Virus record (IMG/VR): IMGVR_UViG_3300027908_000040
Coordinates: 1 to 35,087 of that record
DNA: 35,087 nt
DNA from: a virus
Reading direction: 5' to 3' (one strand)
Shown: positions 107 to 33,129 of the stretch, piece after piece
Layout: each line of letters starts with the position of its first letter
Position numbering within the stretch: position 1 is the stretch's first letter
Made by a program: the position numbers and the translations under genes
Notes under the pieces: model-generated
The model's database searches: none
The model's input: only the letters and a program-made list of their open reading frames with translations
What the model was told of the DNA's origin: nothing

Positions 107-545
107 GAGACGGCTCTTGCTCTTGCGTTGGGATCGCGTCGAGCCGTTTTGTGATGTTTGCGGCGCGGATCTCGGCGATCTCGTTGATTAGCTCGGGATA
201 GGCGCCTTGGTCGAACTTAGTGACGAACCCTCGGACATTGAGAGGATATGGAATAAGCGTATCGCCAATCTTTACCGAGGAATTCGACCCTGCGGCGTTT
301 ACGCTGATGGGCGTCCCGTTCGTGAGGTCCCGAAGTCCGTTATGGATGGGGCAGCCCCGATGATTTCCAGGCTTTCCGGGTGGTAGCGCGTCGAGCGCGT
401 TGCCGCCGAGCGTTGCTCGAAGCCCGTTGACGAACTCCAACGCGGCAGCCTTGTGGATTGCGTTCTTGACGGGATCGCCTGGGTCTGGCGGTGGTTTCGT
501 TCTTGTGGTGGTTGAAGCTGGTGTTTTCGATGCTTTCCTGAACAT
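99..545 (-). CDS. Hypothetical protein
   Basis: A 148-residue protein of unrecognised family, rich in Pro/Lys near its N-terminus (SKTPASTTTRTKPPPDPGDP). The start at 545 is chosen because a GAAGGAG ribosome site lies 5 nt upstream; an adjacent in-frame ATG at 548 sits only 2 nt from it. The C-terminal half (VRGFVTKFDQGAYPELINEI) reads like a small globular domain. It overlaps the next leftward gene by 8 nt and is divergent from the gene at 688. Confidence 0.6.
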   Translation of the reverse strand: MFRKASKTPASTTTRTKPPPDPGDPVKNAIHKAAALEFVNGLRATLGGNALDALPPGKPGNHRGCPIHNGLRDLTNGTPISVNAAGSNSSVKIGDTLIPYPLNVRGFVTKFDQGAYPELINEIAEIRAANITKRLDAIPTQEQEPSHA

Positions 546-2699: not shown

Positions 2700-3032
2700 G
2701 TGAGCGTTGAACTTTTCCCACAGTGGTCTGTGCATAGCTGGGAGCGCGTAAACGCCAACATGCACGGTGCGCTTTCGTGGCATCGAACGTGGGTCGGAGC
2801 GCGTTGGGCTACGCGAGGCGACGAGGATTTGGTAATCTTCGGCCCTTACTGGCCCGACTGGCAGAAGCGCGCGATTTGTCGCATTTGGAAGCATCGTGTT
2901 TATCGCTGGACTGCATCTTGGTGTAAGGAACGCAGTATGCCCCCAACCCGCTATTACTGCGCGCGCTGTGGCGTGGAGCTGGGTCGTAGTCATGAGACGT
3001 TTGGGAAAATCGTGCGCTATGGCGACGAATGA
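2700..3032 (+). CDS. Hypothetical protein with C-terminal CxxC
   Basis: A 110-residue, Trp-rich protein from a GTG start (WERVNANMHGALSWHRTW, then GPYWPDWQKRAICRIWKHRVYRW). A C-terminal YYCARCGVELG could be half of a zinc knuckle. The stop overlaps the next ATG (ATGA at 3029). No family recognised. Confidence 0.6.
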   Translation: MSVELFPQWSVHSWERVNANMHGALSWHRTWVGARWATRGDEDLVIFGPYWPDWQKRAICRIWKHRVYRWTASWCKERSMPPTRYYCARCGVELGRSHETFGKIVRYGDE

Positions 3033-3433
3033 GCCTCATCGCCATCTCTGGCCCGACCGACCCAGCGAATTCTGCGATAATCCAAGCTGACTTCAATCGT
3101 CACGTAACGCAAGGCGACACAATCTACAGCGGAGGCGCTCACGGAGTAGACACGATCGGCGCTGTAGTGGCGAAGGCCCAAGGCGCGAAGCTGGTCCTCG
3201 TGGTCCCGATGGGTAAGTGGTACAACGAGGCACTGCGCGAGTTCGCCGACGAGATCGTTGAGGTCGAGGGCGGCTACATGGCCCGCAACGACAAGCTGGC
3301 CGAGCTTGCTGATTCCCTCGTCGCCTATCCGCCGAGTGCGACCGAAGAACTTCGATCTGGAACCTGGGCCACCGTGAGGCGATTCCGAAAGCGCGGTAAG
3401 GACGTGACAATTCGCGCTGCAACGGGAGGGTGA
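3029..3433 (+). CDS. SLOG/DprA-like Rossmann-fold protein
   Basis: A 134-residue protein with the features of SLOG-superfamily nucleotide-binding proteins (DprA, LOG, YspA relatives): an N-terminal strand LIAISGPTD, the glycine motif YSGGAHGVDT at about residues 33-42, a strand LVLVVPMGKW, and YMARNDKLAELADSLVAYP near the middle, which in the family contacts the ligand. It is a single-domain form lacking DNA-binding extensions. Phage SLOG proteins are generally unassigned; sensing or cleaving nucleotide derivatives is a family-level possibility. Coupled by ATGA to the gene before it. Confidence 0.75.
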   Translation: MSLIAISGPTDPANSAIIQADFNRHVTQGDTIYSGGAHGVDTIGAVVAKAQGAKLVLVVPMGKWYNEALREFADEIVEVEGGYMARNDKLAELADSLVAYPPSATEELRSGTWATVRRFRKRGKDVTIRAATGG

Positions 3434-3618
3434 CCATCCCTTGTACGCGGTCCATTTGGAAACCATTTCTGAGCGCTGATTCTGCTGAGCGGAATGCGAA
3501 AAAACAGAGCTTGGCCCTCCCCCGTACAGCTACATTTTGATCCCGGGATGAAAAGTCCAGTCACTTTTTTGGGGCAGCGAAAAAACACCAGAACATCCGT
3601 TCGTCCGCACAAACCTGC

Positions 3619-12194: not shown

Positions 12195-12329
12195 ATGTTT
12201 CGCGAATACGACATAGACTCGCAGGGGAATCTAGTTCTCGTGGCGCAGTTCGGTCATGAGTGTCGCTATGTTTTGAAGGGCAAATGGTGGTGGAGGCGCC
12301 ACGAATGCTGGTGCGGGTGCCGTCGATGA
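12195..12329 (+). CDS. Small Trp/Cys-rich protein (44 aa)
   Basis: A 44-residue protein (MFREYDIDSQGNLVLVAQFG...) whose C-terminus is dense in Trp, Arg and Cys (KWWWRRHECWCGCRR). The cysteines may bind metal. ATGA overlap couples it to the release-factor-like gene. Function unknown. Confidence 0.5.
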   Translation: MFREYDIDSQGNLVLVAQFGHECRYVLKGKWWWRRHECWCGCRR

Positions 12330-12781
12330 ACCGCGAGAAGATCCTCACCGTCACGATCAAGGACTGCGACGTCCAAACCTTTCGCGTGAGCGGAGCCGGA
12401 GGCCAGCACCGCGACAAGACCTCCGCTGGTGTGCGCGTCGTCCATCCACCTTCGGGCGCGAGTGGTCGCGGGACCGAGAACCGCTCTCAAGCCCAGAACA
12501 AGCGCGACGCCTTCCGCCGTATGGCCGAGAGTCCCGAATTCCAGCGATGGTGTCGGATGAAGGCGCTGCCCGAGTCCGTTGTTGCTGAGAACGAGCAGGC
12601 CCGAAAAGGCGCGAACGTCGGATTCGGCGGGAAGGTTCGCCGCACTTACGTCCTCGACGGCGAAAAGATGGTCATCGACCCCACCACGCGCCACCGAACC
12701 AGCGACGTGCAGCGAGTGCTCGACGGCGACCTCGACGATTTCCACCGCGCGAGCTTTCGCCACGAGGCTAGCGCTTCGTAA
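12326..12781 (+). CDS. Class I release factor catalytic-domain protein
   Basis: A 151-residue protein with the peptidyl-tRNA hydrolysis domain of RF1/RF2: SGAGGQHRDKTSAGVRVVHP, GGQ at residues 25-27, then GRGTENRSQAQNKRDAF. Its C-terminal half keeps the RF2-like tail KVRRTYVL...HRTSDVQRVLDGDLDDF. The codon-recognition domains are absent, and there is no ArfB-type basic tail. It could rescue stalled ribosomes or interfere with host termination. GGQ-only proteins are known from phages. The last 14 nt overlap the end of the convergent methyltransferase fragment. Confidence 0.85.
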   Translation: MNREKILTVTIKDCDVQTFRVSGAGGQHRDKTSAGVRVVHPPSGASGRGTENRSQAQNKRDAFRRMAESPEFQRWCRMKALPESVVAENEQARKGANVGFGGKVRRTYVLDGEKMVIDPTTRHRTSDVQRVLDGDLDDFHRASFRHEASAS

Positions 12782-13074
12782 TCCGATCGTAGATCAGGAT
12801 CGAGCCTGCGGTTGCGACGTTCAAGCAGAGGGACGAAGGAATCGTAACGAGGCCGCCGCTAGCGTGACAGCGCCCTACGGTCGTCTCGCTGAGCCCATGA
12901 TCCTCGGCGCCAAGCAAGTAAAGCGCGCGCTCGGGATGAGCAAAAACCGAAAGCTCGAACGAGCGGTAGCCGAACGGATCGCGGGTCTCAACTCCCACGA
13001 GCTTGCAGCCTGCGGGAATGTGCGCCTCGAAATCCTCGAAGTCGGCGTAGTGGAATAGCGGGACGTGCTTCGCA
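12768..13074 (-). pseudogene. TrmH/SpoU RNA methyltransferase, 3' part
   Basis: C-terminal two thirds of a SPOUT-class 2'-O-ribose methyltransferase: HVPLFHYADFEDFEAHIP, CKLVGVETRD, YLLGAEDHGLSETTVGRC (AdoMet-knot motif 2) and LNVATAGSILIYDRITKR (motif 3). It lacks its start because the transposon at 13075 separates it from the first part (17944-18098). Removing the transposon and one copy of TTCGCA joins CAAK to HVPLF in frame and gives a 151-residue protein of normal family size. An internal GTG at 12998 gives only a 76-residue fragment. Confidence 0.85.
13069..13074. repeat. Target site duplication, left copy (TTCGCA)
   Basis: TTCGCA directly abuts the left terminal inverted repeat; the same six bases abut the right one at 17944-17949. 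They fall in the methyltransferase codons for Ala-Lys. Six bp is shorter than the 8 bp I know for IS1595-family elements. Confidence 0.8.
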
Positions 13075-13098
13075 GGGTCCTGATATACCTATCTCACC
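13075..13098 (+). repeat. Left terminal inverted repeat
   Basis: Begins GGGTCCTGATATACC and ends TCTCACC. The first 13 bases and the last 7 are identical to the inverted right end; three mismatches lie between. Confidence 0.85.
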
Positions 13099-13113
13099 TG
13101 GAGGTTGGCGATT

Positions 13114-13308
13114 ATGCACTCAAGCCTAGTAGTGGTAGGCGACGAATCGGATTACGACGCGGCGATGGTGCTTGTCAGCAGCTCAGGAAGAAGTGCGGTC
13201 ATCAAGCTCACGAGCGATCCTACGAATCGCCTCGCGGAGAGCCTCGACGCCCGCATCCGTTATCTCAAGAGCCTCCAGAATGGCGTCGTCGGAGTTGTCG
13301 CTGACTAG
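13114..13308 (+). CDS. Doubtful small protein, antisense to 13183-13434
   Basis: A 64-residue frame (MHSSLVVVGDESDYDAAMVL...) with GGAGG 9 nt upstream in the sequence CTCACCTGGAGGTT, which recurs before 13486. It overlaps a leftward frame by 126 nt, so probably only one of the two is a real gene. The ribosome site favours this one, codon texture the other. Confidence 0.35.
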   Translation: MHSSLVVVGDESDYDAAMVLVSSSGRSAVIKLTSDPTNRLAESLDARIRYLKSLQNGVVGVVAD

Positions 13309-13434
13309 ATCCTCGCGGACTGGTCTTGACCTACCGGCCTTGAAGGCGTTCTGCATCGCGGGGATCTTCGACATCTCGAACGTCATGATCTCGTTGATCT
13401 CTCGCTCGAATGGACCCACCTCATGTTCGGCCAT
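13183..13434 (-). CDS. Hypothetical helical protein in the transposon
   Basis: An 83-residue, charged, helical protein (MAEHEVGPFEREINEIMTFE..., ending in EALREAIRRIARELDDR). On the minus strand TAGAAT stands exactly 6 nt before its ATG, the leaderless arrangement seen elsewhere in the window. It lies divergent to the VapD gene and could be a partner or antitoxin, but this is inference from position only. Confidence 0.5.
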   Translation of the reverse strand: MAEHEVGPFEREINEIMTFEMSKIPAMQNAFKAGRSRPVREDLVSDNSDDAILEALEITDAGVEALREAIRRIARELDDRTSS

Positions 13435-13440
13435 GCTCAG

Positions 13441-13446
13441 ATTCTA
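13441..13446 (-). promoter_or_regulatory. -10 element (TAGAAT), leaderless
   Basis: TAGAAT on the minus strand, 6 nt before the ATG at 13434. No clear -35 at 17 bp. Confidence 0.4.
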
Positions 13447-13545
13447 TAGGTTGGATTCTCCGACCTCACCTGGAGGTTAGTAGCGATGAATACAAGCGCG
13501 TCTGTGCTGCGATTGCGGACCAGCGAGAGGGTCCCAACGGCCAGC

Positions 13546-13551
13546 TATCCT
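13546..13551 (+). promoter_or_regulatory. -10 element (TATCCT) before vapD
   Basis: TATCCT, then 6 nt, then the ATG of vapD at 13558. No consensus -35 at the usual distance, so support is modest. Confidence 0.35.
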
Positions 13552-13557
13552 AGGCGT

Positions 13558-13869
13558 ATGTACGCAATCGCATTCGATATGGACACCGCCGTGATGGAGC
13601 GCGAGTACGGCAGCTCCAACTGGCGTAAGGGCTATCCCGAAGTCGGGGATATCCTCCTAGCACATGGGTTCGGACATCAACAAGGCTCCGTTTACTTCGG
13701 CAACGAGTCGGTCACGGCCGTCTCGTGTGTTCTTGCCGCTCAGGATGTAGCTCGCCAGCTACCGTGGTTTGCTGCTGCTGTGCGCGACATACGGATGCTG
13801 AGGATCGAGGAGAACAACGATCTCAGCGTGGCGCTGGAGGCCCCCGTGCGGCTTTCCAGCGCGGCGTAG
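13558..13869 (+). CDS. vapD: VapD-family endoribonuclease
   Basis: A 103-residue protein that reads almost entirely as VapD: MYAIAFDMDTAVMEREYG, HGFGHQQGSVYFG, and WFAAAVRDIRMLRIEENND. VapD has a ferredoxin-like fold close to Cas2 and cleaves RNA; it acts as a toxin in some bacteria. The start at 13558 follows TATCCT by 6 nt and matches the family start. A longer form from 13486 (24 extra residues) has GGAGG 9 nt upstream and is possible. It is cargo of the transposon; no classical VapX antitoxin is seen. Confidence 0.85.
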   Translation: MYAIAFDMDTAVMEREYGSSNWRKGYPEVGDILLAHGFGHQQGSVYFGNESVTAVSCVLAAQDVARQLPWFAAAVRDIRMLRIEENNDLSVALEAPVRLSSAA

Positions 13870-13870
13870 T

Positions 13871-14512
13871 TCAGCATTCGGGCTTGATCTTTTCGATGCC
13901 TGGGTAGCCTTCAGTTACGAGAGCGCCGTCAACACTTGACGGGTTGAAGGGCTGTTCTTCGTCGTTTTCGTCGTGGCCCGTTTCTAGCTCGATCTGAGCC
14001 ACAGGGACCGTTGCGGGATTTCCCCGCTCGCCTAGGGCTCGTGCCAAGGTGGGGCTCCTGATCAGCATCAGCTCGCACTTGGGCAGCGTTTCGTCATCGA
14101 AGATCGTTGCGTCGTGGGGGAACTGTTCGGCGAGGATCGCTCGCTTAGCTTCGCTGGCCGACTCACCTTCGAAGTGGTATTCGTAGCCCGTGACGCGGTT
14201 GTCGGCGTGTTTTACGTCGCCGTATTCGTCTTGGCCCTCACCTTCGGGTAGCGATGAGTTTTGGTTGTACGCGGCTTCGTGTTCGTAGTTCGTGTCTTCG
14301 GTATGCGCCCCGTTCCACGCTTCGTCAGTGGCGCCGAAGCCAGTGATGCTTGGTTCAGGTGGATCGGGCGTAGTAGCGGCTGCTTCCGCGCGTTCGGTTT
14401 CGGCGATATGAGCAGCACTTGGCGTGGATACAGATTCTTCGTGCCTTTCGGTAGCCGCCGCGCAGCCTGTGAGTGCTACAGCGATCAGCATCAGCCCCGC
14501 GAGACGCCTCAT
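13871..14512 (-). CDS. Lipoprotein of unknown function
   Basis: A 213-residue protein with a clear lipoprotein signal: MRRLAGLMLIAVALTGC with the lipobox Leu-Thr-Gly-Cys17. The mature protein is acidic, with a Thr/Pro/Glu-rich linker (residues 25-55) and a C-terminal globular part containing YEYHFEGESASEAKRAILAE. No family recognised. Its ATG overlaps the stop of the secreted-protein gene (ATGA), and its stop is 1 nt from that of vapD on the other strand. Confidence 0.7.
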   Translation of the reverse strand: MRRLAGLMLIAVALTGCAAATERHEESVSTPSAAHIAETERAEAAATTPDPPEPSITGFGATDEAWNGAHTEDTNYEHEAAYNQNSSLPEGEGQDEYGDVKHADNRVTGYEYHFEGESASEAKRAILAEQFPHDATIFDDETLPKCELMLIRSPTLARALGERGNPATVPVAQIELETGHDENDEEQPFNPSSVDGALVTEGYPGIEKIKPEC

Positions 14513-15369
14513 ATCTTGAGCGCGCTACAGACGGGCTTCGGTATGTGTGCGCCCGGTCCACAGACCGATGAGCCCCACGTAACGACTCGCCAAGCTCCGC
14601 GTGCGTACTGGAAGACGATCGTCTCGGGCTGGGCGTTGTGGGGGAAGATTGACCAGCTTGCGGCGGCCCAGCCGGTGCTTGTGGTTCGGTCCGAGAGGAA
14701 ATGGTGCTGCTGGCGATCAAAGCCACCCGAGCGACGCAGGCTGGCGCTCGCTTCCATTGCTCGGACCTGAGTCCGCGTTGCCCGTGAGACGCGCATAGCC
14801 GGTGCTGTGGTCAGCGGCGGATACCCGCTGAGTGAGAACGGTTCGCTACCACTGAGCGCTCCGCACCGTAGTTCTAGGCCAACGAGATGTGGATTCGCAT
14901 AGGTGATCGTGAACGTTCGGCCGTCGAAGGGACCAACTGCTTCAAGGCTCCCGGCGAAGCCTTCTAGGCTGAGGGTGCCGCGCGTGATTTCAGAGGCCGC
15001 GTGGTCGAGTTCGTCGTATTCCTGAACGCCGTGGAATTCGCCTCGAACAAGACCATCGCCAGATTCTTCAACTTCGCTGCACTTGGGTGCCAGCCGGAAG
15101 CCTTCCCGTTCTAGCTTCGATTCCCAATGACTCGGATCATAGTTTTCGGCCGTGATCGTGATTGACCCGGCTTCGTCGTCGTAGGAGATCGCAACTTCGT
15201 GCAGATACTCGCGGGTTTCGATCGCCGGAGGACGAGGTTCGAGACTTGGGCCGTCCTGGGGTTGTTCGAAGATCACTCGACCCGTGTGGATCGTCCCGAA
15301 TGCGACGGCTGGAACGATAAGTCCGAGGATCGAAATTACTAGCGCGAAAGCGCTAGTCTTGCGTGGCAT
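14509..15369 (-). CDS. Secreted or membrane-anchored protein of unknown function
   Basis: A 286-residue protein. The start at 15369 has GGAG 5 nt upstream; the frame extends further to 15423 without a ribosome site. An N-terminal hydrophobic segment (FALVISILGLIVPAVAFG) is a signal peptide or anchor, followed by an extracellular beta-rich region (EVAISYDDEAGSITITAENY, TFTITYANPHLVG). Cotranscribed with the lipoprotein. Both look like chromosomal envelope genes from an actinobacterium picked up by the transposon; that origin is inference. Confidence 0.65.
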   Translation of the reverse strand: MPRKTSAFALVISILGLIVPAVAFGTIHTGRVIFEQPQDGPSLEPRPPAIETREYLHEVAISYDDEAGSITITAENYDPSHWESKLEREGFRLAPKCSEVEESGDGLVRGEFHGVQEYDELDHAASEITRGTLSLEGFAGSLEAVGPFDGRTFTITYANPHLVGLELRCGALSGSEPFSLSGYPPLTTAPAMRVSRATRTQVRAMEASASLRRSGGFDRQQHHFLSDRTTSTGWAAASWSIFPHNAQPETIVFQYARGAWRVVTWGSSVCGPGAHIPKPVCSALKI

Positions 15370-15392
15370 CGAAGCTCCTAACTTCGGTGTCA

Positions 15393-15421
15393 GCCCCCGG
15401 AGTGCTTGCGCTGCCGGGGGC
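15393..15421. promoter_or_regulatory. Strong hairpin in the leader of the secreted-protein gene
   Basis: GCCCCCGG (15393-15400) pairs with CCGGGGGC (15414-15421), and the interior AGTG/CGCT can extend the stem with a CTTG loop and one bulged G. It lies 24 nt upstream of the leftward ATG at 15369. No T-run follows on either strand, so it is not a typical terminator. Confidence 0.5.
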
Positions 15422-15440
15422 ACTGTTCTGCTGTTAGGTA

Positions 15441-15462
15441 GTCAAGATACAGGAATCTTGAC
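15441..15462. promoter_or_regulatory. Dyad operator between divergent genes
   Basis: GTCAAGAT-N6-ATCTTGAC is a perfect 8+8 inverted repeat (15441-15448 and 15455-15462). It lies between the leftward envelope genes and the rightward XRE regulator, as expected for autoregulation. Each arm also contains TTGAC, a -35-like core pointing outward, though neither -10 is convincing. Confidence 0.6.
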
Positions 15463-15509
15463 GGTCTGTCTCTTGGCTTTCGAGGTCTGGCCGTTGAAGC
15501 TCAGCGGTC

Positions 15510-15722
15510 GTGAGCCACCTTGAGCGCTTCGCCGCCAACATGAAGGAGCTGCGAGCCGAACGTGGCTGGTCCCAAGAGGATCTATCGCGCTACTCGGGCC
15601 TGCACTACACGGCGATATCGAAGATCGAGCGCGCTGCACGGGCGCCAGCATTTCCGACGGTGGTTACGCTCGCTAAAGCGTTCGAGATTCCAGCGGGACG
15701 GCTATTCGACGGAATCCCGTAG
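15510..15722 (+). CDS. XRE-family regulator of the transposon
   Basis: A 70-residue single-domain Cro/CI-type protein from a GTG: FAANMKELRAERGWSQEDLS, then HYTAISKIERAARAPAFPTV and LAKAFEIPAGRLFDGI. This is a complete HTH_3 domain with little else. The dyad at 15441-15462 just upstream is its likely operator, controlling itself and the divergent lipoprotein/secreted-protein pair. Confidence 0.8.
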   Translation: MSHLERFAANMKELRAERGWSQEDLSRYSGLHYTAISKIERAARAPAFPTVVTLAKAFEIPAGRLFDGIP

Positions 15723-15738
15723 GGCAAGTCGGTTAGCA

Positions 15739-15864
15739 TACGGCGGGTGGGGCTCGAACCCACACGGCCAGTCAGGAGAGCCTTTCGATTTGGGGTCTCG
15801 GGCTCTTGACTTAGTGGCCACCGGCATGAAAAACCGGCGCGTCTACCAATTTCGCCACCGCCGC
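15739..15864 (-). tRNA. Class II tRNA, Leu-type body with UUC anticodon
   Basis: On the minus strand the cloverleaf is complete: acceptor GCGGCGG with CCGCCGT (one G-U), T8-G9, D arm GCG AAATTGGTAGA CGC as in tRNA-Leu, anticodon stem CCGGT/GCCGG, seven-base loop TTTTCAT, T arm GTGGG-TTCGAGC-CCCAC, and discriminator A73; CCA is not encoded. The loop puts the anticodon at 15830-15828 as UUC, which reads Glu codons. The variable region is about 57 nt: a normal Leu-like GGCC/GGCC stem whose loop holds an extra hairpin (AGTCA-AGAGCC with GGCTCT-CC-TGACT). It lies 44 nt past the transposase companion frame on the same strand. Confidence 0.75.
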
Positions 15865-15908
15865 GAGCCCGACCGCTTCATGTCGGGCTCAACGCCAGTG
15901 TAGGAAGG

Positions 15909-16064
15909 CTAGTCTCGGGACTTCGGGGCGATCTTGTGCTGCTTGAGCTTCTCGGCCAGCTCGACCTTGGGGACCTTGAAAAGCTTGCGGGCGAGATCCT
16001 CGAAGCTCTCGTACTCGGCTCCATCTTCGCCGCCGGGCTTTTCGTTCGGGCGATCATCTTCCAC
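15909..16064 (-). CDS. Small companion protein of the IS1595 transposase
   Basis: A 51-residue frame from GTG 16064 that overlaps the end of the transposase gene by 11 nt. The sequence has an acidic Gly/Pro N-terminus, then YESFEDLARKLFKVPKVEL. Short frames with an F.(D/E).(A)RKL..VPK(A/V)E pattern commonly follow ISXO2-type transposases in actinobacteria. Function is unknown. Confidence 0.7.
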   Translation of the reverse strand: MEDDRPNEKPGGEDGAEYESFEDLARKLFKVPKVELAEKLKQHKIAPKSRD

Positions 16065-16995
16065 CCTCTGAGGGTAGCGCGCCGATCAGACCCGCATACG
16101 TCAATCGCCTTCCGCTGACAGCGCCAAGAATCGCCTCGAAGCGCGCGTAGTCGCTATCCCGGCGCTGGTTGAAGGCGAATACGCGCTCGTCGATGTAGCG
16201 GAACAAGTGGAAGGGCTCCACGGAGATATAAGTTCCCGAAAGCGACCGCTTCAACAACGACCAGAAGGACTCGATGGTGTTCGTGTGGACTTTGCCGTCC
16301 ACGTAGCGTTCCGCGTGGTCGATCGTTTTGTGCGTGAAGCGCACCCCAAGGCCGTTGTAGGACGGCAGCGCGTCTGAATAGACGGTGGAGCCGTTGGCGA
16401 CAGAGGCTTTGATGATCGGCCTGAGCGTCTTGCCACGTACGTCTGGCACCACCTGCGCCTTGACCTTCCCGCCACGTTCGATCATCCCGAAAACGGGCGT
16501 CTTACCGGAGCCCTTACCGCCCCGCTTGACGGCTTTCCGCTTGCGATCGGCCGCGTGCATGTTGCGCGCCTTACCGCCGATGAACGTCTCATCGACCTCG
16601 ATCTCCCCGGAGAGCCGTACAAAGCTTTCCGTCTGCATGGCGAGTCGAATCCGATGCAGCATGAACCACGCCGTCTTTTGCGTGATCCCCAAGGCACGTC
16701 CAAGCTCGTGCGAGCTAATGCCGTTCTTGGAGTTCGCGATCAGCCAGACCGCCGGTAGCCACTTACTCAACGGTAGCGGCGAGTTCTCAAAGATCGTGCC
16801 CACCTTGACCGAATACTGCTTCTTGCACGCCTTGCACTTCCAAACCCGACGAGTGCTCAGGTAGCTGTATTCCGTGCAGGCACACGCGGGGCAAAACGGA
16901 CCGTCAGGCCAGATGATCTGCGCAACGAATGCCGTGCAGGTATCGGGGTCTGAGAAGTACCGAATGGCCTCCAACAGCGTCTTAGGCTTGCTCAT
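16054..16995 (-). CDS. tnpA: IS1595-family (ISXO2-like) transposase
   Basis: A 313-residue transposase with an N-terminal zinc ribbon (CPAC at 35-38, CKAC at 54-57), a helical DNA-binding segment (ISSHELGRALGITQKTAWFMLHR, quoted in part) and a DDE-type core: VDETFIGGK (Asp135), VYSDALPSY (Asp208), HTNTIESFWSLLK (Glu242), followed by SGTY and a C-terminal RRDSDYARFE segment. Length fits the family and no frameshift is seen. It moves the element by cut-and-paste. The start ATG at 16995 is in family register. Confidence 0.95.
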   Translation of the reverse strand: MSKPKTLLEAIRYFSDPDTCTAFVAQIIWPDGPFCPACACTEYSYLSTRRVWKCKACKKQYSVKVGTIFENSPLPLSKWLPAVWLIANSKNGISSHELGRALGITQKTAWFMLHRIRLAMQTESFVRLSGEIEVDETFIGGKARNMHAADRKRKAVKRGGKGSGKTPVFGMIERGGKVKAQVVPDVRGKTLRPIIKASVANGSTVYSDALPSYNGLGVRFTHKTIDHAERYVDGKVHTNTIESFWSLLKRSLSGTYISVEPFHLFRYIDERVFAFNQRRDSDYARFEAILGAVSGRRLTYAGLIGALPSEGGR

Positions 16996-17330
16996 GCGGT
17001 GAGCTTACGACGTCGTTCGGACGGAACAATGTCGCACCCGCTGCGACGCGGGCCACAGAGGACCCGCGCTCGCAACGCTGAACTGTGCCCCTGGCACCTA
17101 CGACTGGAGCGCCAGAGGCACGGCTACATCAACGCGGAGGAATCCACCACGGGCACCACCTCCTCTCGTTTCGGTGATCCTGCTCGCGCCGCGCTACTAC
17201 GCGGTGACGAGTAGGAGCCGTCGATCTGACGGCAACCGATTAGCGTAGGCTGCGATGAGGACGAAATTCCACGAACGTCTGTTCGGTTGGAGTCGTCGCG
17301 CCCGAGCGTGTAGCGTTCTACGGGCCACTC
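16996..17330. other. Non-coding stretch in the transposon
   Basis: 335 nt upstream of the transposase with no convincing gene. It holds short inverted repeats, such as GCGGG/CCCGC around 17047-17066 and GTGCC/GGCAC near 17088-17098. A 71-residue rightward frame at 16999-17214 has no ribosome site and low-complexity Arg-rich sequence, so it is not called. Confidence 0.5.
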
Positions 17331-17555
17331 ATGCCGATCGACAGAACCAATGTGACCCGTCTGGTCGAACAACTTCTCGATGCTGCTGAGCGCGAGCATC
17401 CGAACGCAGAGATAACCGACGTAGTGCTAGTAGCCCAGATCTCAGAAGATGGTCTGTCGGAACTGCGGATGCGCTACGGCGGGAGCGACCCATCTAAGAC
17501 CGTCGCCGTCCTCCAGGGAGCCATTGCGACCTACGTTTCCCAGCGGGGGACCTGA
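17331..17555 (+). CDS. Hypothetical protein in the transposon
   Basis: A 74-residue protein (MPIDRTNVTRLVEQLLDAAE...), with helix then beta-rich sequence (ITDVVLVAQISEDGLSELRM). No family recognised. Its 3' end overlaps the convergent membrane-protein gene by 62 nt, so one of the two may be mis-called, though both read as plausible proteins. Confidence 0.5.
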   Translation: MPIDRTNVTRLVEQLLDAAEREHPNAEITDVVLVAQISEDGLSELRMRYGGSDPSKTVAVLQGAIATYVSQRGT

Positions 17556-17868
17556 ACTTACGCACGATTTCTTCCTCGATCTCGCCGCCCGGCCCCGTGC
17601 TTTGCGGCGATGCGATGGAACTCTCGCTCGTTGCTTCGACTTCGACGTCTTTCATCTCTCGGACGAAAGCCACGATAGACGTAATGGTTAGCGCAATCCC
17701 AACGCCAACAACAAAGACGCCAACCAGCCACCAGAAGTGATGCCAGCGATGGACGTGTTCCCCAAACCCAGTCTGCTCAACCGCGAGCAAACCAAAACCG
17801 GCCACAAAGGCTATGCCAGCTAGCGCAAGCAAGTAGGCCGTTGGATCGTGAGTTCGCACGCGCCGCAT
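17494..17868 (-). CDS. Two-helix membrane protein in the transposon
   Basis: A 124-residue protein with two transmembrane helices (AYLLALAGIAFVAGFGLLAV and FWWLVGVFVVGVGIALTITS) joined by a His/Trp-rich loop, and a charged cytoplasmic tail of about 50 residues. No family recognised. It starts 51 nt inside the right terminal repeat. Confidence 0.6.
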   Translation of the reverse strand: MRRVRTHDPTAYLLALAGIAFVAGFGLLAVEQTGFGEHVHRWHHFWWLVGVFVVGVGIALTITSIVAFVREMKDVEVEATSESSIASPQSTGPGGEIEEEIVRKFRSPAGKRRSQWLPGGRRRS

Positions 17869-17919
17869 GGCGCGGAGCCTACTTGCGGCTCGCTAAATGC
17901 ATGTCCGAACGCCCGTTCG

Positions 17920-17943
17920 GGTGAGACGGCTATATCAGGACCC
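17920..17943 (-). repeat. Right terminal inverted repeat
   Basis: Read inward it begins GGGTCCTGATATAGCC and ends TCTCACC, matching the left end at 21 of 24 positions. A perfect CCGAAC-GCCC-GTTCGG hairpin (17905-17920) abuts it on the inside. Confidence 0.85.
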
Positions 17944-17949
17944 TTCGCA
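17944..17949. repeat. Target site duplication, right copy (TTCGCA)
   Basis: Direct repeat of 13069-13074, immediately outside the right inverted repeat. Confidence 0.8.
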
Positions 17950-18098
17950 GCACAGGTGGTATCGGTTGGTTGGCGTGGCGGTCGGAAGCCGATCGTGAAA
18001 ATCATCGAGGCTCCAAAAGCATGTGCGGATCGCCACAATCCGCCCACGTTCTGCGTGCTCTTGCCATCCACGATTCCGATGCCGAAGTAGCCTCGCAT
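17944..18098 (-). pseudogene. TrmH/SpoU RNA methyltransferase, 5' part
   Basis: N-terminal third of the methyltransferase split by the transposon: MRGYFGIGIVDGKSTQNVGG, LWRSAHAFGASMIFTIG, RQPTDTTCAAK. The QNVGGLWRSAHAFGA segment is SPOUT motif 1 (NxGxxxRxA). The frame runs into the transposon and stops at 17820, giving a 92-residue hybrid without the AdoMet-binding knot. Its ATG is in a TAATG overlap with the upstream gene, so the intact gene was the last of the leftward operon. Family members methylate tRNA or rRNA ribose. Confidence 0.85.
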
Positions 18099-23760: not shown

Positions 23761-25083
23761 ATGTCGCTAATACGGCGCGCTTTGAACGCGGCATCGGAGC
23801 AAAGAGGCGCCTCTGGATACCTACCTTGGGGTGACTCCACGCCGCCCTCCAACGGCATGCTAGGTGGAAGTTCGGCGGGGGTGACGGTTTCGGAAAAGAC
23901 GGCTCTCCAGGTCGCCGCAGTCTACGGCTCTGTCGGCGTTCTCGCTGATGCGGTTTCCACGCTACCGATTCACGTCGTTAACAACCCCGAAAGCCCCACG
24001 CGCAAAAAGCTACCGCCTCCGCGCTTGATAACGGAACCCTACGCCGAGATTTCCCTAACGGACTGGTGGGTCCAGTACACGATCAGCATGGCGCTTCGTG
24101 GAAACTTCTTCGGCCAGATCATCGAACGCGACTCCGAACTTTACGCGACGCAGATCAAGCCGATCCACCCCGATCAAACAAACGTGCGCAGGCTGCCAAA
24201 CGGCGAAATCCAGTATCGCTTTCTCGGTAAGATCGTGCCGAATAAAGACGTCTTCCACGTCAAGTATCTGAGCGTTCCGGGTGCTCTGCTTGGGCTGAAT
24301 CCCGTCGAATACTTGCGGAACTCGCTCGGCCTTGCGCGAGCCCAGGATCTCTACGGCGCGGCGTGGTTCCAGAACTCCGCGATGCCCTCGGGCGTCATCC
24401 AGGTTGCTGACGACTTGGATGAGGACGAGATCATCAAACTTGCGCGGCAGTGGATGTCAACCCACCAGGGGATCGGTCAATCCTCGCTGCCTGCCGTTCT
24501 GACCGGAGGCTCGGAGTTCAAGGCAATCTCGATGAACCCCGAGGATTCTCAGTTCATCGAGTCGCGAGGTTTCTCGCAGGGTGAAATTTCTGGTATGCTG
24601 TTCAGAGTGCCACCCCACATGATCGGGATCGTGGATAGATCAACAAGCTGGGGTCGCGGGATCGAGCAACAAGAGACTGGATTTGTGCGAAACACGCTGT
24701 CTTCTTATCTCACCCGTGGCGAGCGCGCCCTAACGGCCCTTCTGCGGCCGAAGGAATTCGTGGAATTCGACATCGGCATGCGCATGCGCGGAGATCGCCT
24801 AGAGCGCTACCAAGGCTACTCGCTGGGCATGCTCGGAGGCTGGGAAACCGCCGACGAGATCAGGGCCGAAGAGGGCAAACCCCCGCTGCCGAACGGAGTG
24901 GGCAAAGTCAGCCTCGCACCGATCAACACCGAACCGATCGAAGCGATGCTGGAGCGCATTAAACGCGAAAAGGAAGAGGCAGAATCCGGCGAAAAGAAGG
25001 AAGCCGAAGATTTCGACGAAGAAGACAAAGAAAAGCAGAAGCAAGAAGAAGCGAAAAAGGCTACGAAGAAGACTGGAAAATAA
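23761..25083 (+). CDS. HK97-family portal protein
   Basis: A 440-residue portal protein. Family features in order: TVSEKTALQVAAVYGSVGVL near the N-terminus, LRGNFFGQI, FHVKYLSVPGALLGLNPVEY, RGFSQGEISGMLFRVPPHMIG, and a C-terminal WETADEIRAEEGKPPL. The Lys/Glu-rich tail of about 45 residues is normal. Twelve subunits form the DNA entry vertex and dock terminase. GAGG lies upstream of ATG 23761. Confidence 0.95.
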   Translation: MSLIRRALNAASEQRGASGYLPWGDSTPPSNGMLGGSSAGVTVSEKTALQVAAVYGSVGVLADAVSTLPIHVVNNPESPTRKKLPPPRLITEPYAEISLTDWWVQYTISMALRGNFFGQIIERDSELYATQIKPIHPDQTNVRRLPNGEIQYRFLGKIVPNKDVFHVKYLSVPGALLGLNPVEYLRNSLGLARAQDLYGAAWFQNSAMPSGVIQVADDLDEDEIIKLARQWMSTHQGIGQSSLPAVLTGGSEFKAISMNPEDSQFIESRGFSQGEISGMLFRVPPHMIGIVDRSTSWGRGIEQQETGFVRNTLSSYLTRGERALTALLRPKEFVEFDIGMRMRGDRLERYQGYSLGMLGGWETADEIRAEEGKPPLPNGVGKVSLAPINTEPIEAMLERIKREKEEAESGEKKEAEDFDEEDKEKQKQEEAKKATKKTGK

Positions 25084-25088
25084 ACTTC

Positions 25089-25462
25089 ACGTGGCTTGGC
25101 TCGGCTCGGCCCGACGCGGCGAGACTCGGTGAGGCATGGCTCGGCTCGGCAGGACGTGGCTCGGCCGGACGCGGGGTAAGTTTTAGAAGATTCACAAGGC
25201 ATGGCGCGGCAGGGCTCGGCACGGCAGGGCAGGGCTCGGCTAGTCTCGACATGAGGCAAGTTGGGAAAACGAAGCACGTGGCAAGGCGCGACCTGGCTTG
25301 GCACGACCTGGCTCGGCCTGGCACGACCTGGGACAAGATTCAAATACTTCACATGGCAAGGCACGGCCCGGCAAGACGCGGCTCGGCGTGGCTTGGCGTG
25401 GAGCAAGATTGCGATAAAACACACGACGTGGCACGGCTGGGCCGGCAACGCCGGGCATGGGA
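25089..25462. repeat. Degenerate GGCNN pentamer tract in about four higher-order units
   Basis: About 375 nt after the portal stop consist mostly of five-base words GGCTC, GGCAC, GGCAG, GGCTT, GGCGT and relatives (CGACC, GGCAA) in tandem. The pentamer runs are broken by AT-rich spacers that resemble each other: TAAGTTTTAGAAGATTCACA, then GGCAAGTTGGGAAAACGAAG, then ACAAGATTCAAATACTTCAC, then GCAAGATTGCGATAAAACAC, spaced roughly 75-105 bp. Frames on either strand give only low-complexity peptides, so it is treated as non-coding; it fills the whole gap between 25084 and 25484. Confidence 0.85.
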
Positions 25463-28256: not shown

Positions 28257-29603
28257 ATGGCTACCAACAACGAAAAGCTCGCCGAACACGCACGCCACCA
28301 GCGCGACTTCCACGCGGATCGTGCCGCCAAGGCGATCCCCGAGGGGCGCTTGCCAGACGATGGCGAGGTCGTCGAAATCGAGCGGGCTCTGGGGGAACGC
28401 GATAAGTGGAGCGCACGCTACGAGACTTTCAAGTCTCCGAGAATCGAAGTCAAGCGCGAGCCGCTCACTTACCAGTACCGCTACTCGAAACACAGCTACT
28501 TCAAAGATCGCGCGATGGTCGAGATCAATAATGACGCCGCTGCCGAAGAACGACTCCAGCGTCACGGCAGGGAGATGGAAGTCGAGGTTCCTAGGCTCGA
28601 AAAGCGTCTCGCGGGTGAACCCGAGGGCATGGAGCGTCGCGTAAACCCGAGCCGAACGGATGGCCAAGGTGGCTACTTCAGCCCGCCGCTTTGGGCGATC
28701 GAGTATTTCGCGACTGGCCGTCGTCCGAAGCGCGTTCTCTCTGCGATGGTTGAGAACTTCCTGCTTGAGCCTGGGGTTTCCGAAATCAAGCTCCCCGCAA
28801 TTCATCCTACAACGAAGGCCGAAGAGGACATCGACGACACGGCAGTCGTTGACAAGGATCTCCAAGACAATTTGGTCGAATGCTGGGTCACGACAACAGA
28901 CGGCATGCAGGACGTTTCGATGCAACTTTTGGAACAATCCGCTGCACCAGGCTTCGACTTTGCGGTGCTGAAGGACCTCCACGAGTCCTACGACCAGCGC
29001 ATCGAGGAACGAATGATAATTGGTAAGGGCAACGAATATCAGGAGATCCTCGGCCTCACGAATTTGCCGACGACGGGGAATCTCGCGACGACGAAGCTCG
29101 AATACAACTCAGCTTCACCGCGCGGGACGACAATGTTCCGCGAACTCGGGAAGCTTGCTGCGAAGGTGGGGGACGAACGTAAACTACAGCCCGAGGTGTG
29201 GTTGATGCGGACTGCTCGCTGGGCGTGGTTGGGCACTGCTCAAGACCTCTCAGAATTGCCACTGGCGGTTCCAGGGCATCAGCCCGTGCCGCTCTATCCG
29301 CACCTGATGGACGACGAAGTTCCTACCTCCGTGCCCCCGATGCTGGGCTGGCCGATTTACTGCGATGATGCGATCCCAGCGGAACTCGGCGAAGCAAAAA
29401 ACCAGGATCTCGTCGTTTGTATGCGCCCATCGGATCAGATGATCTTCGAGGGCGTGGAGAAAACGCGCGTAATGACGGACGTAACGTCGGGAACCCTGCA
29501 GGCTCGAATCCAGTTGTGGCGCTACGGCGCGATGCTCTGGCGGTACCCGAGCGGCGTCGCGTATTTGACAGGAACCGGACTCGCAGTGGAATCGGGGTAC
29601 TGA
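28257..29603 (+). CDS. Major capsid protein A, HK97 fold
   Basis: A 448-residue protein with AGGAG 5 nt before ATG. The first 125 residues are helical and charged, and the capsid domain begins near RRVNPSRTDGQGGYFSPPLW, shared with capsid protein B. Later family features: VSEIKLPAI, VTTTDGMQDVSMQLLEQSAA, DLHESYDQRIEERMIIGKG, and WLMRTARWAWLG. The N-terminal part probably acts as the delta scaffold removed by the protease. The equivalent of the intron site in capsid B (GGY) is uninterrupted here. Confidence 0.88.
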   Translation: MATNNEKLAEHARHQRDFHADRAAKAIPEGRLPDDGEVVEIERALGERDKWSARYETFKSPRIEVKREPLTYQYRYSKHSYFKDRAMVEINNDAAAEERLQRHGREMEVEVPRLEKRLAGEPEGMERRVNPSRTDGQGGYFSPPLWAIEYFATGRRPKRVLSAMVENFLLEPGVSEIKLPAIHPTTKAEEDIDDTAVVDKDLQDNLVECWVTTTDGMQDVSMQLLEQSAAPGFDFAVLKDLHESYDQRIEERMIIGKGNEYQEILGLTNLPTTGNLATTKLEYNSASPRGTTMFRELGKLAAKVGDERKLQPEVWLMRTARWAWLGTAQDLSELPLAVPGHQPVPLYPHLMDDEVPTSVPPMLGWPIYCDDAIPAELGEAKNQDLVVCMRPSDQMIFEGVEKTRVMTDVTSGTLQARIQLWRYGAMLWRYPSGVAYLTGTGLAVESGY

Positions 29604-32112: not shown

Positions 32113-33129
32113 TACTTCGTGCCCCCACTTTGGCTCGTGGACGAGTACCTTCCCTATCTAAGGGCTGGTCGTCCGACGGCAAATCTCTGTCGCCAGATGG
32201 ATCTCCCGCCGGGTACGGACTCGATCAACGTCCCCCGCTTGAAGGCTCCGACAAAGGTAGCCCCGCAGACTGCGGATTCTGCTGCTGTGGAATCGAAAGA
32301 CTTCACAGACGAAGCCGTGCAGGCCAATGTGAAGACGCTGGCTGGTCAGGAGGACGTCGCGATTCAGCTCTTGGAGCAGTCTCCAGGACAGATCGTGGAT
32401 CGGGTGATCATGGAGGATCTGCTTGCCGACTACAACCGGCTCGTAGACCGTCAGGTTCTTTACTCGCCTGGCACGGCAACGACCTCCCTGAACGCTGGGG
32501 AAATCGTGGGTCTCTTCCCGAAAACGAACTGGGGCGTCGGTTCGCCCTACGAAGCGAACCAGATCAAATTTGAAGCAACCGCTGGTAAAATCCCGGCGAT
32601 TGGCTTCTATCAGACGCTCGGTGCTATGGCATCTAAAGTGTCGTATAACCGTTATGATCTGGAAAACCTCCACTTCGTGATGCACCCACGTCGCTGGTTC
32701 TGGTTTGCCACGATCGGTGATGGTAAAGAAGGGCTCGAAGGTCGTCCGTTGGTGAACAACGACGGCTACGGGCCTTATAACATCGCGGCTGATGTCATCA
32801 ATCCAACTCCTTTCGAGGGACTGGCTGGTTCGGTTCCGTTTGGTCCGAAAGTGTTCATTGACGGCAATGTCCCGGTTGAAGCAACCGAAGCTGGAGCCGT
32901 TACTGGAGGTACCGAAGACTTTGCTCTCGCGGGCAAGTTTGACGACTTCTGGTTGTTCGAGGGCGATCTGCGGACTCGGGTTCTCCCTGAGATTTTGTCG
33001 GGTACGCTTGAGATCCGGTTCCAGATTTTCAATTACGTCGCTTTCCTTGTTCGGTACCCGCAGAGCATCTGCTTTGGCTTGGGTACGGGCATGAAAGCAC
33101 CAGAAGGTGCCTACAAACAGGCATTCTAA
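32113..33129 (+). CDS. Major capsid protein B, exon 2
   Basis: The main HK97-fold capsid domain, 338 residues, beginning in frame at TAC-TTC-GTG (YFVPPLWLVDEYL). Features: DLPPGTDSINVPRLK, FTDEAVQANVKTLAGQEDVA, IQLLEQSPGQIVDRVIMEDL, LHFVMHPRRWFWFA, LPEILSGTLEIRFQIFNYVA. Without splicing the first start would be GTG 32119, but the alignment with capsid A shows that exon 1 is needed. This copy is the better candidate for the main shell because it retains a long scaffold domain and a canonical capsid core. Confidence 0.9.
   Translation, partial: YFVPPLWLVDEYLPYLRAGRPTANLCRQMDLPPGTDSINVPRLKAPTKVAPQTADSAAVESKDFTDEAVQANVKTLAGQEDVAIQLLEQSPGQIVDRVIMEDLLADYNRLVDRQVLYSPGTATTSLNAGEIVGLFPKTNWGVGSPYEANQIKFEATAGKIPAIGFYQTLGAMASKVSYNRYDLENLHFVMHPRRWFWFATIGDGKEGLEGRPLVNNDGYGPYNIAADVINPTPFEGLAGSVPFGPKVFIDGNVPVEATEAGAVTGGTEDFALAGKFDDFWLFEGDLRTRVLPEILSGTLEIRFQIFNYVAFLVRYPQSICFGLGTGMKAPEGAYKQAF

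Follow-up and report, generated by a model that had tools for sequence, protein, structure and literature searches.

Bacterial LeuRS requires the discriminator base A73 and the tertiary core of its tRNA and does not read the anticodon, and the identity set of Escherichia coli GluRS includes the D-stem pair U11-A24. Transposons of the IS1595 family (ISXO2-like) that carry cargo genes share their transposase family, inverted repeats of the GG...ATATA type and an 8-bp target duplication. Natural class II tRNAs of unusual architecture have been described from metagenomes as allo-tRNAs, with an unusual acceptor branch (9/3 in the described ones) and features of the Ser/Sec type (Mukai et al.; review PMC7609411). 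Changes to the anticodon and to the variable arm both have precedents in active tRNAs: E. coli leuW, leuX and leuZ, once given the anticodon UGA, read TCA as leucine (PMC12269064), and engineered class II tRNAs can remain active in translation with a hairpin at the tip of the variable arm (PMC7590224). On the side of the invader, phage tRNAs counter retron-Eco7 and PrrC (PMC11555353), and have been proposed to confer resistance to host tRNases (PMC10264068). Here we describe a tRNA gene that joins a leucine-type body to a glutamate anticodon and a giant variable arm and is carried by an IS1595-family transposon in a phage genome.

The window, that is, the whole stretch of 35,087 nt analysed here, is a tailed-phage contig (an IMG/VR virus record) with terminase, portal, protease and head-protein genes, and its closest named-phage terminases are those of Streptomyces and Gordonia phages (39-44% identity). 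cmscan returned a match to the Rfam tRNA model RF00005 at 15864-15739 (48.6 bits, gathering threshold 29, E 1.4e-7), which covers model positions 1-71 of 71, is not truncated, reproduces exactly the coordinates proposed by a previous sequence-only reading and places the gene on the minus strand. ARAGORN, which that reading had suggested as a check, called no tRNA over the whole window and missed the gene. Complete pairing of the cloverleaf, T loop included, had also been claimed, and all 20 pairs are indeed intact, with zero mismatches: an acceptor stem of seven pairs (GCGGCGG/CCGCCGU, including G1:U72), followed by UG and a D arm of three pairs (GCG/CGC) with G26 next; an anticodon stem of five pairs (CCGGU/GCCGG); and a T arm of five pairs (GUGGG-UUCGAGC-CCCAC). 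A73 is present and CCA is not encoded; U8, A14, G18 and G19 are present as well, together with a standard T loop. The anticodon UUC in a seven-base loop stands, with U33 in place, and the shifted registers UCA and CAU were rejected, as only the UUC register leaves the stem paired at 5/5 positions.

The variable region is as large as had been proposed (57 nt), but the single 11-bp hairpin described for it resolves into two helices separated by a bulge. Its base has the usual form (U, GGCC/GGCC, GU); a 4-nt bulge separates it from AGUCA/UGACU and a 2-nt bulge separates this in turn from AGAGCC/GGCUCU, which closes an 18-nt loop, so that the extra hairpin consists of 5+6 pairs on top of an ordinary arm. 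The minimum free energy of the tRNA is -55.5 kcal/mol, compared with -43.9 for shuffled sequences (z -3.0; 2/200 shuffles equally stable). A further hairpin lies one base short of the mature 5′ end (Table 1); it is complementary to the variable arm (GAGCCCGA), over segments so short that chance may explain the match.

Table 1. Features of the window and of comparison loci (positions outside the window are those of the contig named)
Feature	Locus	Position	Strand	Basis
Class II Leu-type tRNA gene, anticodon UUC, 126 nt, A73	window	15739-15864	-	cmscan RF00005, fold
Anticodon loop UUUUCAU (U33, U34 U35 C36, A37); anticodon UUC at 15828-15830	window	15826-15832	-	sequence; 5/5 paired stem
Leu-type D arm UGGCGAAAUUGGUAGACGC (U8 to C25)	window	15839-15857	-	comparison with 12 ordinary Leu tRNAs
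Variable region, 57 nt	window	15764-15820	-	sequence and fold
Hairpin AGCCCGAC-ATGAAGCG-GTCGGGCT, 24 nt	window	15866-15889	-	fold of 15730-15905, position
IS1595-family cargo transposon, about 4.87 kb	window	13076-17942		inverted repeats GGTCCTGATATA; absent from L129
8-bp target duplication CTTCGCAG, left copy	window	13068-13075		comparison with L129
8-bp target duplication CTTCGCAG, right copy	window	17943-17950		comparison with L129
IS1595-family transposase (ISXO2-like DDE domain and zinc ribbon)	window	16054-16995	-	PF12762 142.6 bits, PF12760 48.9 bits, NF033547 204.4 bits
51-aa ORF after transposase	window	15909-16064	-	weak match beside L170 transposase, 43% over 47 aa
Cro/C1-type HTH protein, 70 aa, cargo, convergent with tRNA	window	15510-15722	+	PF01381 52.0 bits
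VapD-like (Cas2-fold type) protein, cargo	window	13558-13869	+	NF041506 55.7 bits, E 4.8e-15; weak Cas2 matches
Predicted cargo ORF, 213 aa	window	13871-14512	-	without Pfam match
Predicted cargo ORF, 304 aa	window	14509-15423	-	without Pfam or plasmid match
tRNA-Asn in IS1595-family transposon	L217	11324-11397	-	63.7 bits; hairpin just 5′ of tRNA too
tRNA in IS1595-family transposon, CGC anticodon	L215	2904-2977	+	55.7 bits, Arg-like body by eye
Viral RNA family member	L050	~3439-3548	-	Leu-type D arm, full anticodon arm GUU, G73, encoded CCA
Viral RNA family member	L122	~3305-3420	+	Leu-type D arm, full anticodon arm GUU, G73, encoded CCA
Example shell	L033	2404-2511		pattern match
Example shell	L043	11905-12008		pattern match
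Example shell	L058	252-349		pattern match

The body of the tRNA is of the leucine type. Among the loci examined, 16 tRNAs combine a Leu-type D arm with a complete anticodon arm, and the 12 ordinary ones all carry leucine anticodons (12/12), the others being the oddities discussed here. The D arm of the window tRNA is of the same type as that of all 12, which, together with A73 and the RF00005 match, bears out the assignment to class II leucine tRNAs made in the sequence-only reading. The T loop, the 7/5 acceptor branch and the base of the variable arm (U-stem ... stem-GU) are likewise those of bacterial tRNA-Leu. The window tRNA differs from these in its anticodon, which is not one for a leucine codon, in its variable region, which compares with 6-18 nt in the 12 ordinary tRNAs examined, and in G1:U72; its loop departs at three or more positions from what we take to be the usual leucine loops. 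It is not a glutamate tRNA in structure, since tRNA-Glu has a class I body with a short variable loop, and the D stem here has C11-G24. Nor does it belong with the allo-tRNAs, as its acceptor stem of 7 bp, T stem of 5 bp and Leu-type D arm differ from a 9/3-type branch with Ser/Sec-type identity.

An IS1595-family transposon carries the tRNA, as had been suspected from the neighbouring transposase gene. The element is bounded by inverted repeats and an 8-bp target duplication, as in other members of this family, and a relative of the phage (L129), ~96% identical around the terminase, lacks 13076-17942 and contains CTTCGCAG once, representing the empty site. The transposase scores 204.4 bits against a curated NF033547 cut-off of 75. 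It lies upstream of the tRNA on the same strand, in agreement with the earlier description, with the 51-aa ORF in between. The VapD neighbour named in that description is a cargo gene which scored 55.7 bits, below the VapD equivalog cut-off of 100 bits (NCBIfam NF041506), and is hence referred to here as VapD-like only. The 304-aa cargo protein had no match in plasmids or in related loci. A promoter and terminator scan of 15400-17300 found no sigma-70-like promoter and no terminator-like site, a scan that actinobacterial promoters need not fit.

tRNA cargo recurs in IS1595 elements. Among 80 related transposase loci from viral contigs, inverted repeats and 8-bp duplications defined the ends of 45 elements (1.2-7.0 kb), two of which (L217 and L215) contain a tRNA gene. 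At least one of the three tRNAs now known from such elements looks damaged, with two mismatched pairs in the anticodon stem of the L215 tRNA. Searching the 80 loci for the window tRNA gave no second carrier. The window element thus resembles its relatives in transposase, termini, target duplication and the presence of cargo, and differs in bearing the odd tRNA and the VapD-like gene, with tRNAs in only two other delimited relatives.

Relatives of the tRNA were sought with patterns combining a Leu-type D arm with a UUC loop in 2.9 million viral contigs and 84,980 genomes; these patterns demand near-exact D arms, so that diverged copies could escape, and they detected no other complete class II UUC tRNA. 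A pattern for the 5′ half added nothing in viral contigs, and BLAST searches against phages and plasmids gave only short matches covering a quarter of the query or less. The candidates were rejected for various reasons: L003 pairs at 5/7 acceptor and 3/5 anticodon-stem positions; L002, L004, L005 and L163-L167 match D arm and UUC, with no tRNA called at the matched place; and L168 3128-3203 (-), from a Pseudanabaena MAG, has a Leu-type D arm and UUC, yet a variable loop of 5 nt. The sequence-only reading had named the absence of homologs with conserved loop and arm as evidence against its proposal, and none was found in these pattern scans. Conservation is therefore unusable as evidence of function, and a tRNA with mismatched body and anticodon as transposon cargo is so far a single case. 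Two class II Leu-type tRNAs in a Mucilaginibacter MAG (L169 6976-7063 and 7102-7189) have an odd anticodon loop, possibly of 6 nt; they stand in tandem with an ordinary tRNA-Leu(UAA), and ARAGORN gives both the two-base anticodon 'tc'. ROOL RNA (319.8 bits) was observed near tRNA arrays in the same viral region at L164 3627-4233 (-) and L166 12352-12958 (+).

Among the matches of a looser pattern, described below, L050 and L122 belong to a marine family of viral RNAs, to which L250 and L251 were added, with a variable arm of 41-44 nt. Its four members are fully paired, and their three distinct sequences include two compensated pairs; as 59/500 shuffles equal that, covariation support is modest. 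ARAGORN made no call on any of them. The family is like the window tRNA in its Leu-type D arm, its full anticodon arm with a non-leucine anticodon, its giant variable arm and its escape from ARAGORN, and unlike it in GUU, G73, the encoded CCA, the shorter variable region and the virus groups concerned. No sequence in common was found beyond the D arm, as acceptor, anticodon, variable arm and discriminator all differ. Two overlapping Rfam matches were also noted on L050, at 156-458 and 112-501 (-), to permuted tmRNA (85.2 bits) and alphaproteobacterial tmRNA (81.9 bits).

A looser pattern, consisting of a Leu-type D arm, a long gap and a T arm, matched at least 120 viral contigs (L009-L128). 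The acceptor stem, which the pattern leaves unconstrained, pairs 7/7 in 97 of the 120 matches listed; 94 of these 97 also pair at the three free T-stem positions, and these 94 show 52 different acceptor sequences. At the canonical place of the anticodon stem, four or more pairs form in only 4 of the 120 matches listed. About 90 of the matches listed are tRNA-Leu shells, whose hypervariable middle measures 60-90 nt (limits imposed by the search) and which lack a canonical anticodon arm. Several shells run against Rfam gave no match, and a single query against a phage collection found none. An intron reading of the shells as a set was rejected, since split anticodon stems (15 seen against 10.9 expected from shuffles) are barely commoner than chance. 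A few of the matches listed, L012 ~2870-3005 (+) and L079 3275-3403 (-), resemble tRNA-Leu(UAA) genes whose anticodon loop holds an insert of ~45-52 nt, less than a group I intron requires.

The sequence-only reading had also raised recoding of GAA, which in the sense of reassignment is contradicted by codon use. At conserved positions of transposase, terminase and portal (those where at least half of the homologs agree), GAA aligns with Glu in 5/10 cases and with Leu in 1/10, and GAG with Glu in 22/28. GAA is also freely used, at 61/1292 codons in the predicted ORFs of the transposon and 102/2769 in eight phage ORFs. Reassignment of GAA to leucine was rejected because Glu is its most frequent aligned residue, and the proposed role in stress-time recoding is not supported. 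Misreading is another matter. If expressed, the tRNA would plausibly accept leucine and could then misread GAA/GAG, a prediction made because A73, U8, A14, G18, G19 and the T loop suit LeuRS and because the altered E. coli leucine tRNAs and the engineered class II tRNAs cited above provide precedents.

We tentatively favor the explanation that the gene is a captured bacterial tRNA-Leu gene with altered loop and arm, whose product, if transcribed, may be leucylated and give low-level Glu-to-Leu misreading. An IS1595-family transposon would have captured the bacterial gene as cargo and would later have inserted into the phage genome; before or after capture, the anticodon loop would have become UUUUCAU (UUC) and a hairpin would have been added at the tip of the variable arm. 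The tRNA may be transcribed with the transposase message, after which both ends would be trimmed and CCA added by the host. Leucine charging followed by reading of GAA/GAG would then amount to occasional errors and not to reassignment. Several points weigh against this explanation: Glu-to-Leu errors at a common codon would be costly, and no benefit to the element is evident; ordinary class II tRNAs have much smaller variable arms; and no homolog was found in the pattern scans, nor any promoter-like site in 15400-17300. The next most likely reading, though a somewhat doubtful one, is a dead or dying passenger, in which a tRNA-Leu was picked up with adjoining DNA, lost selection, drifted in its loop, gained a small inverted repeat in the variable arm and makes no product. 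It is consistent with the single copy, the lack of relatives and the absence of a promoter-like site from the scanned region; the mismatched stem of the L215 tRNA indicates that cargo tRNAs can decay, and the Mucilaginibacter MAG offers tandem Leu-type tRNAs with altered anticodon loops. Random drift should strike stems also, however, and long neutral decay is argued against because every stem is paired while the loop differs at at least three positions from leucine loops as we presume them to be. U33 and the T loop are also intact, and the inserted hairpin is well paired.

Two other explanations dispense with misreading. As a counter-defense decoy, the Glu-type loop on a leucine body would absorb an anticodon nuclease directed at tRNA-Glu and spare genuine tRNA-Glu when a phage infects or the transposon enters. 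In Acinetobacter, RloC cuts both tRNA-Glu and tRNA-Gln, and its Geobacillus counterpart accepts an isolated synthetic Glu anticodon stem-loop as substrate (PMC3874168); the window loop shares U34 U35 C36 A37 with glutamate tRNAs, and the defense-countering phage tRNAs mentioned at the outset are likewise borne by an invading element and involve anticodon-loop changes. Those tRNAs, however, are matching replacements of the tRNA under attack, while body and anticodon disagree here and a Leu-type body should not stand in for tRNA-Glu; loop bases 32 and 38 also depart from the usual CUUUCAC. We consider the decoy unlikely. A scaffold RNA, in which the tRNA shell would give stability and end processing, the variable-arm hairpin would be the active part bound by protein or RNA, and decoding would be irrelevant, appears improbable. 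The viral shells with long hypervariable middles, no canonical anticodon arm and varied but paired acceptors speak for it, as does the existence of the viral family with Leu-type D arm and extended variable arm. On the other hand, a scaffold has no need of a full anticodon arm with U33, yet the window RNA retains one; any kinship with the shells beyond the D-arm type would be putative, and no conserved hairpin sequence is known. A broader claim, quite unlikely in our estimation, would be that the tRNA-Leu shell (acceptor, D and T arms) has been adopted time and again by mobile elements and viruses as a stable, processed carrier of other RNA payloads. The payload would be the variable-arm hairpin in the window RNA, the giant variable arm in the L050 family and the hypervariable middle that replaces the anticodon arm in the ~90 shells, and all three would belong to an unrecognized kind of RNA invisible to standard tRNA finders.

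Should the tRNA be leucine-charged, as the favored explanation predicts, a natural missense tRNA would be travelling with a transposon and by way of a phage; a decoy or scaffold would instead represent uses of tRNA bodies on mobile elements unseen by standard finders. That viral genomes hold more tRNA-like genes with giant variable arms than are reported is firm, ARAGORN having missed both the window tRNA and the whole L050 family.

Some features of the phage genome outside the transposon were also noted. A phage gene at 12260-12781 (+) encodes a 173-aa release-factor domain protein with a GGQ motif, nearest to prfB (TIGR00020, 93 bits) and missing the N-terminal domains; it lies outside the L129 alignment. 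Two ORFs, at 28257-29603 and 32119-33129 (+), both show matches to the C-terminal portion of a single major head protein family, phrog_2263, and ORFs between and after them resemble homing or HNH endonucleases, as judged by eye. A repetitive stretch 3′ of the portal gene (about 24816-25448) has reverse-strand ORFs that translate as PSQVVPSQVAPCHV-like repeats.
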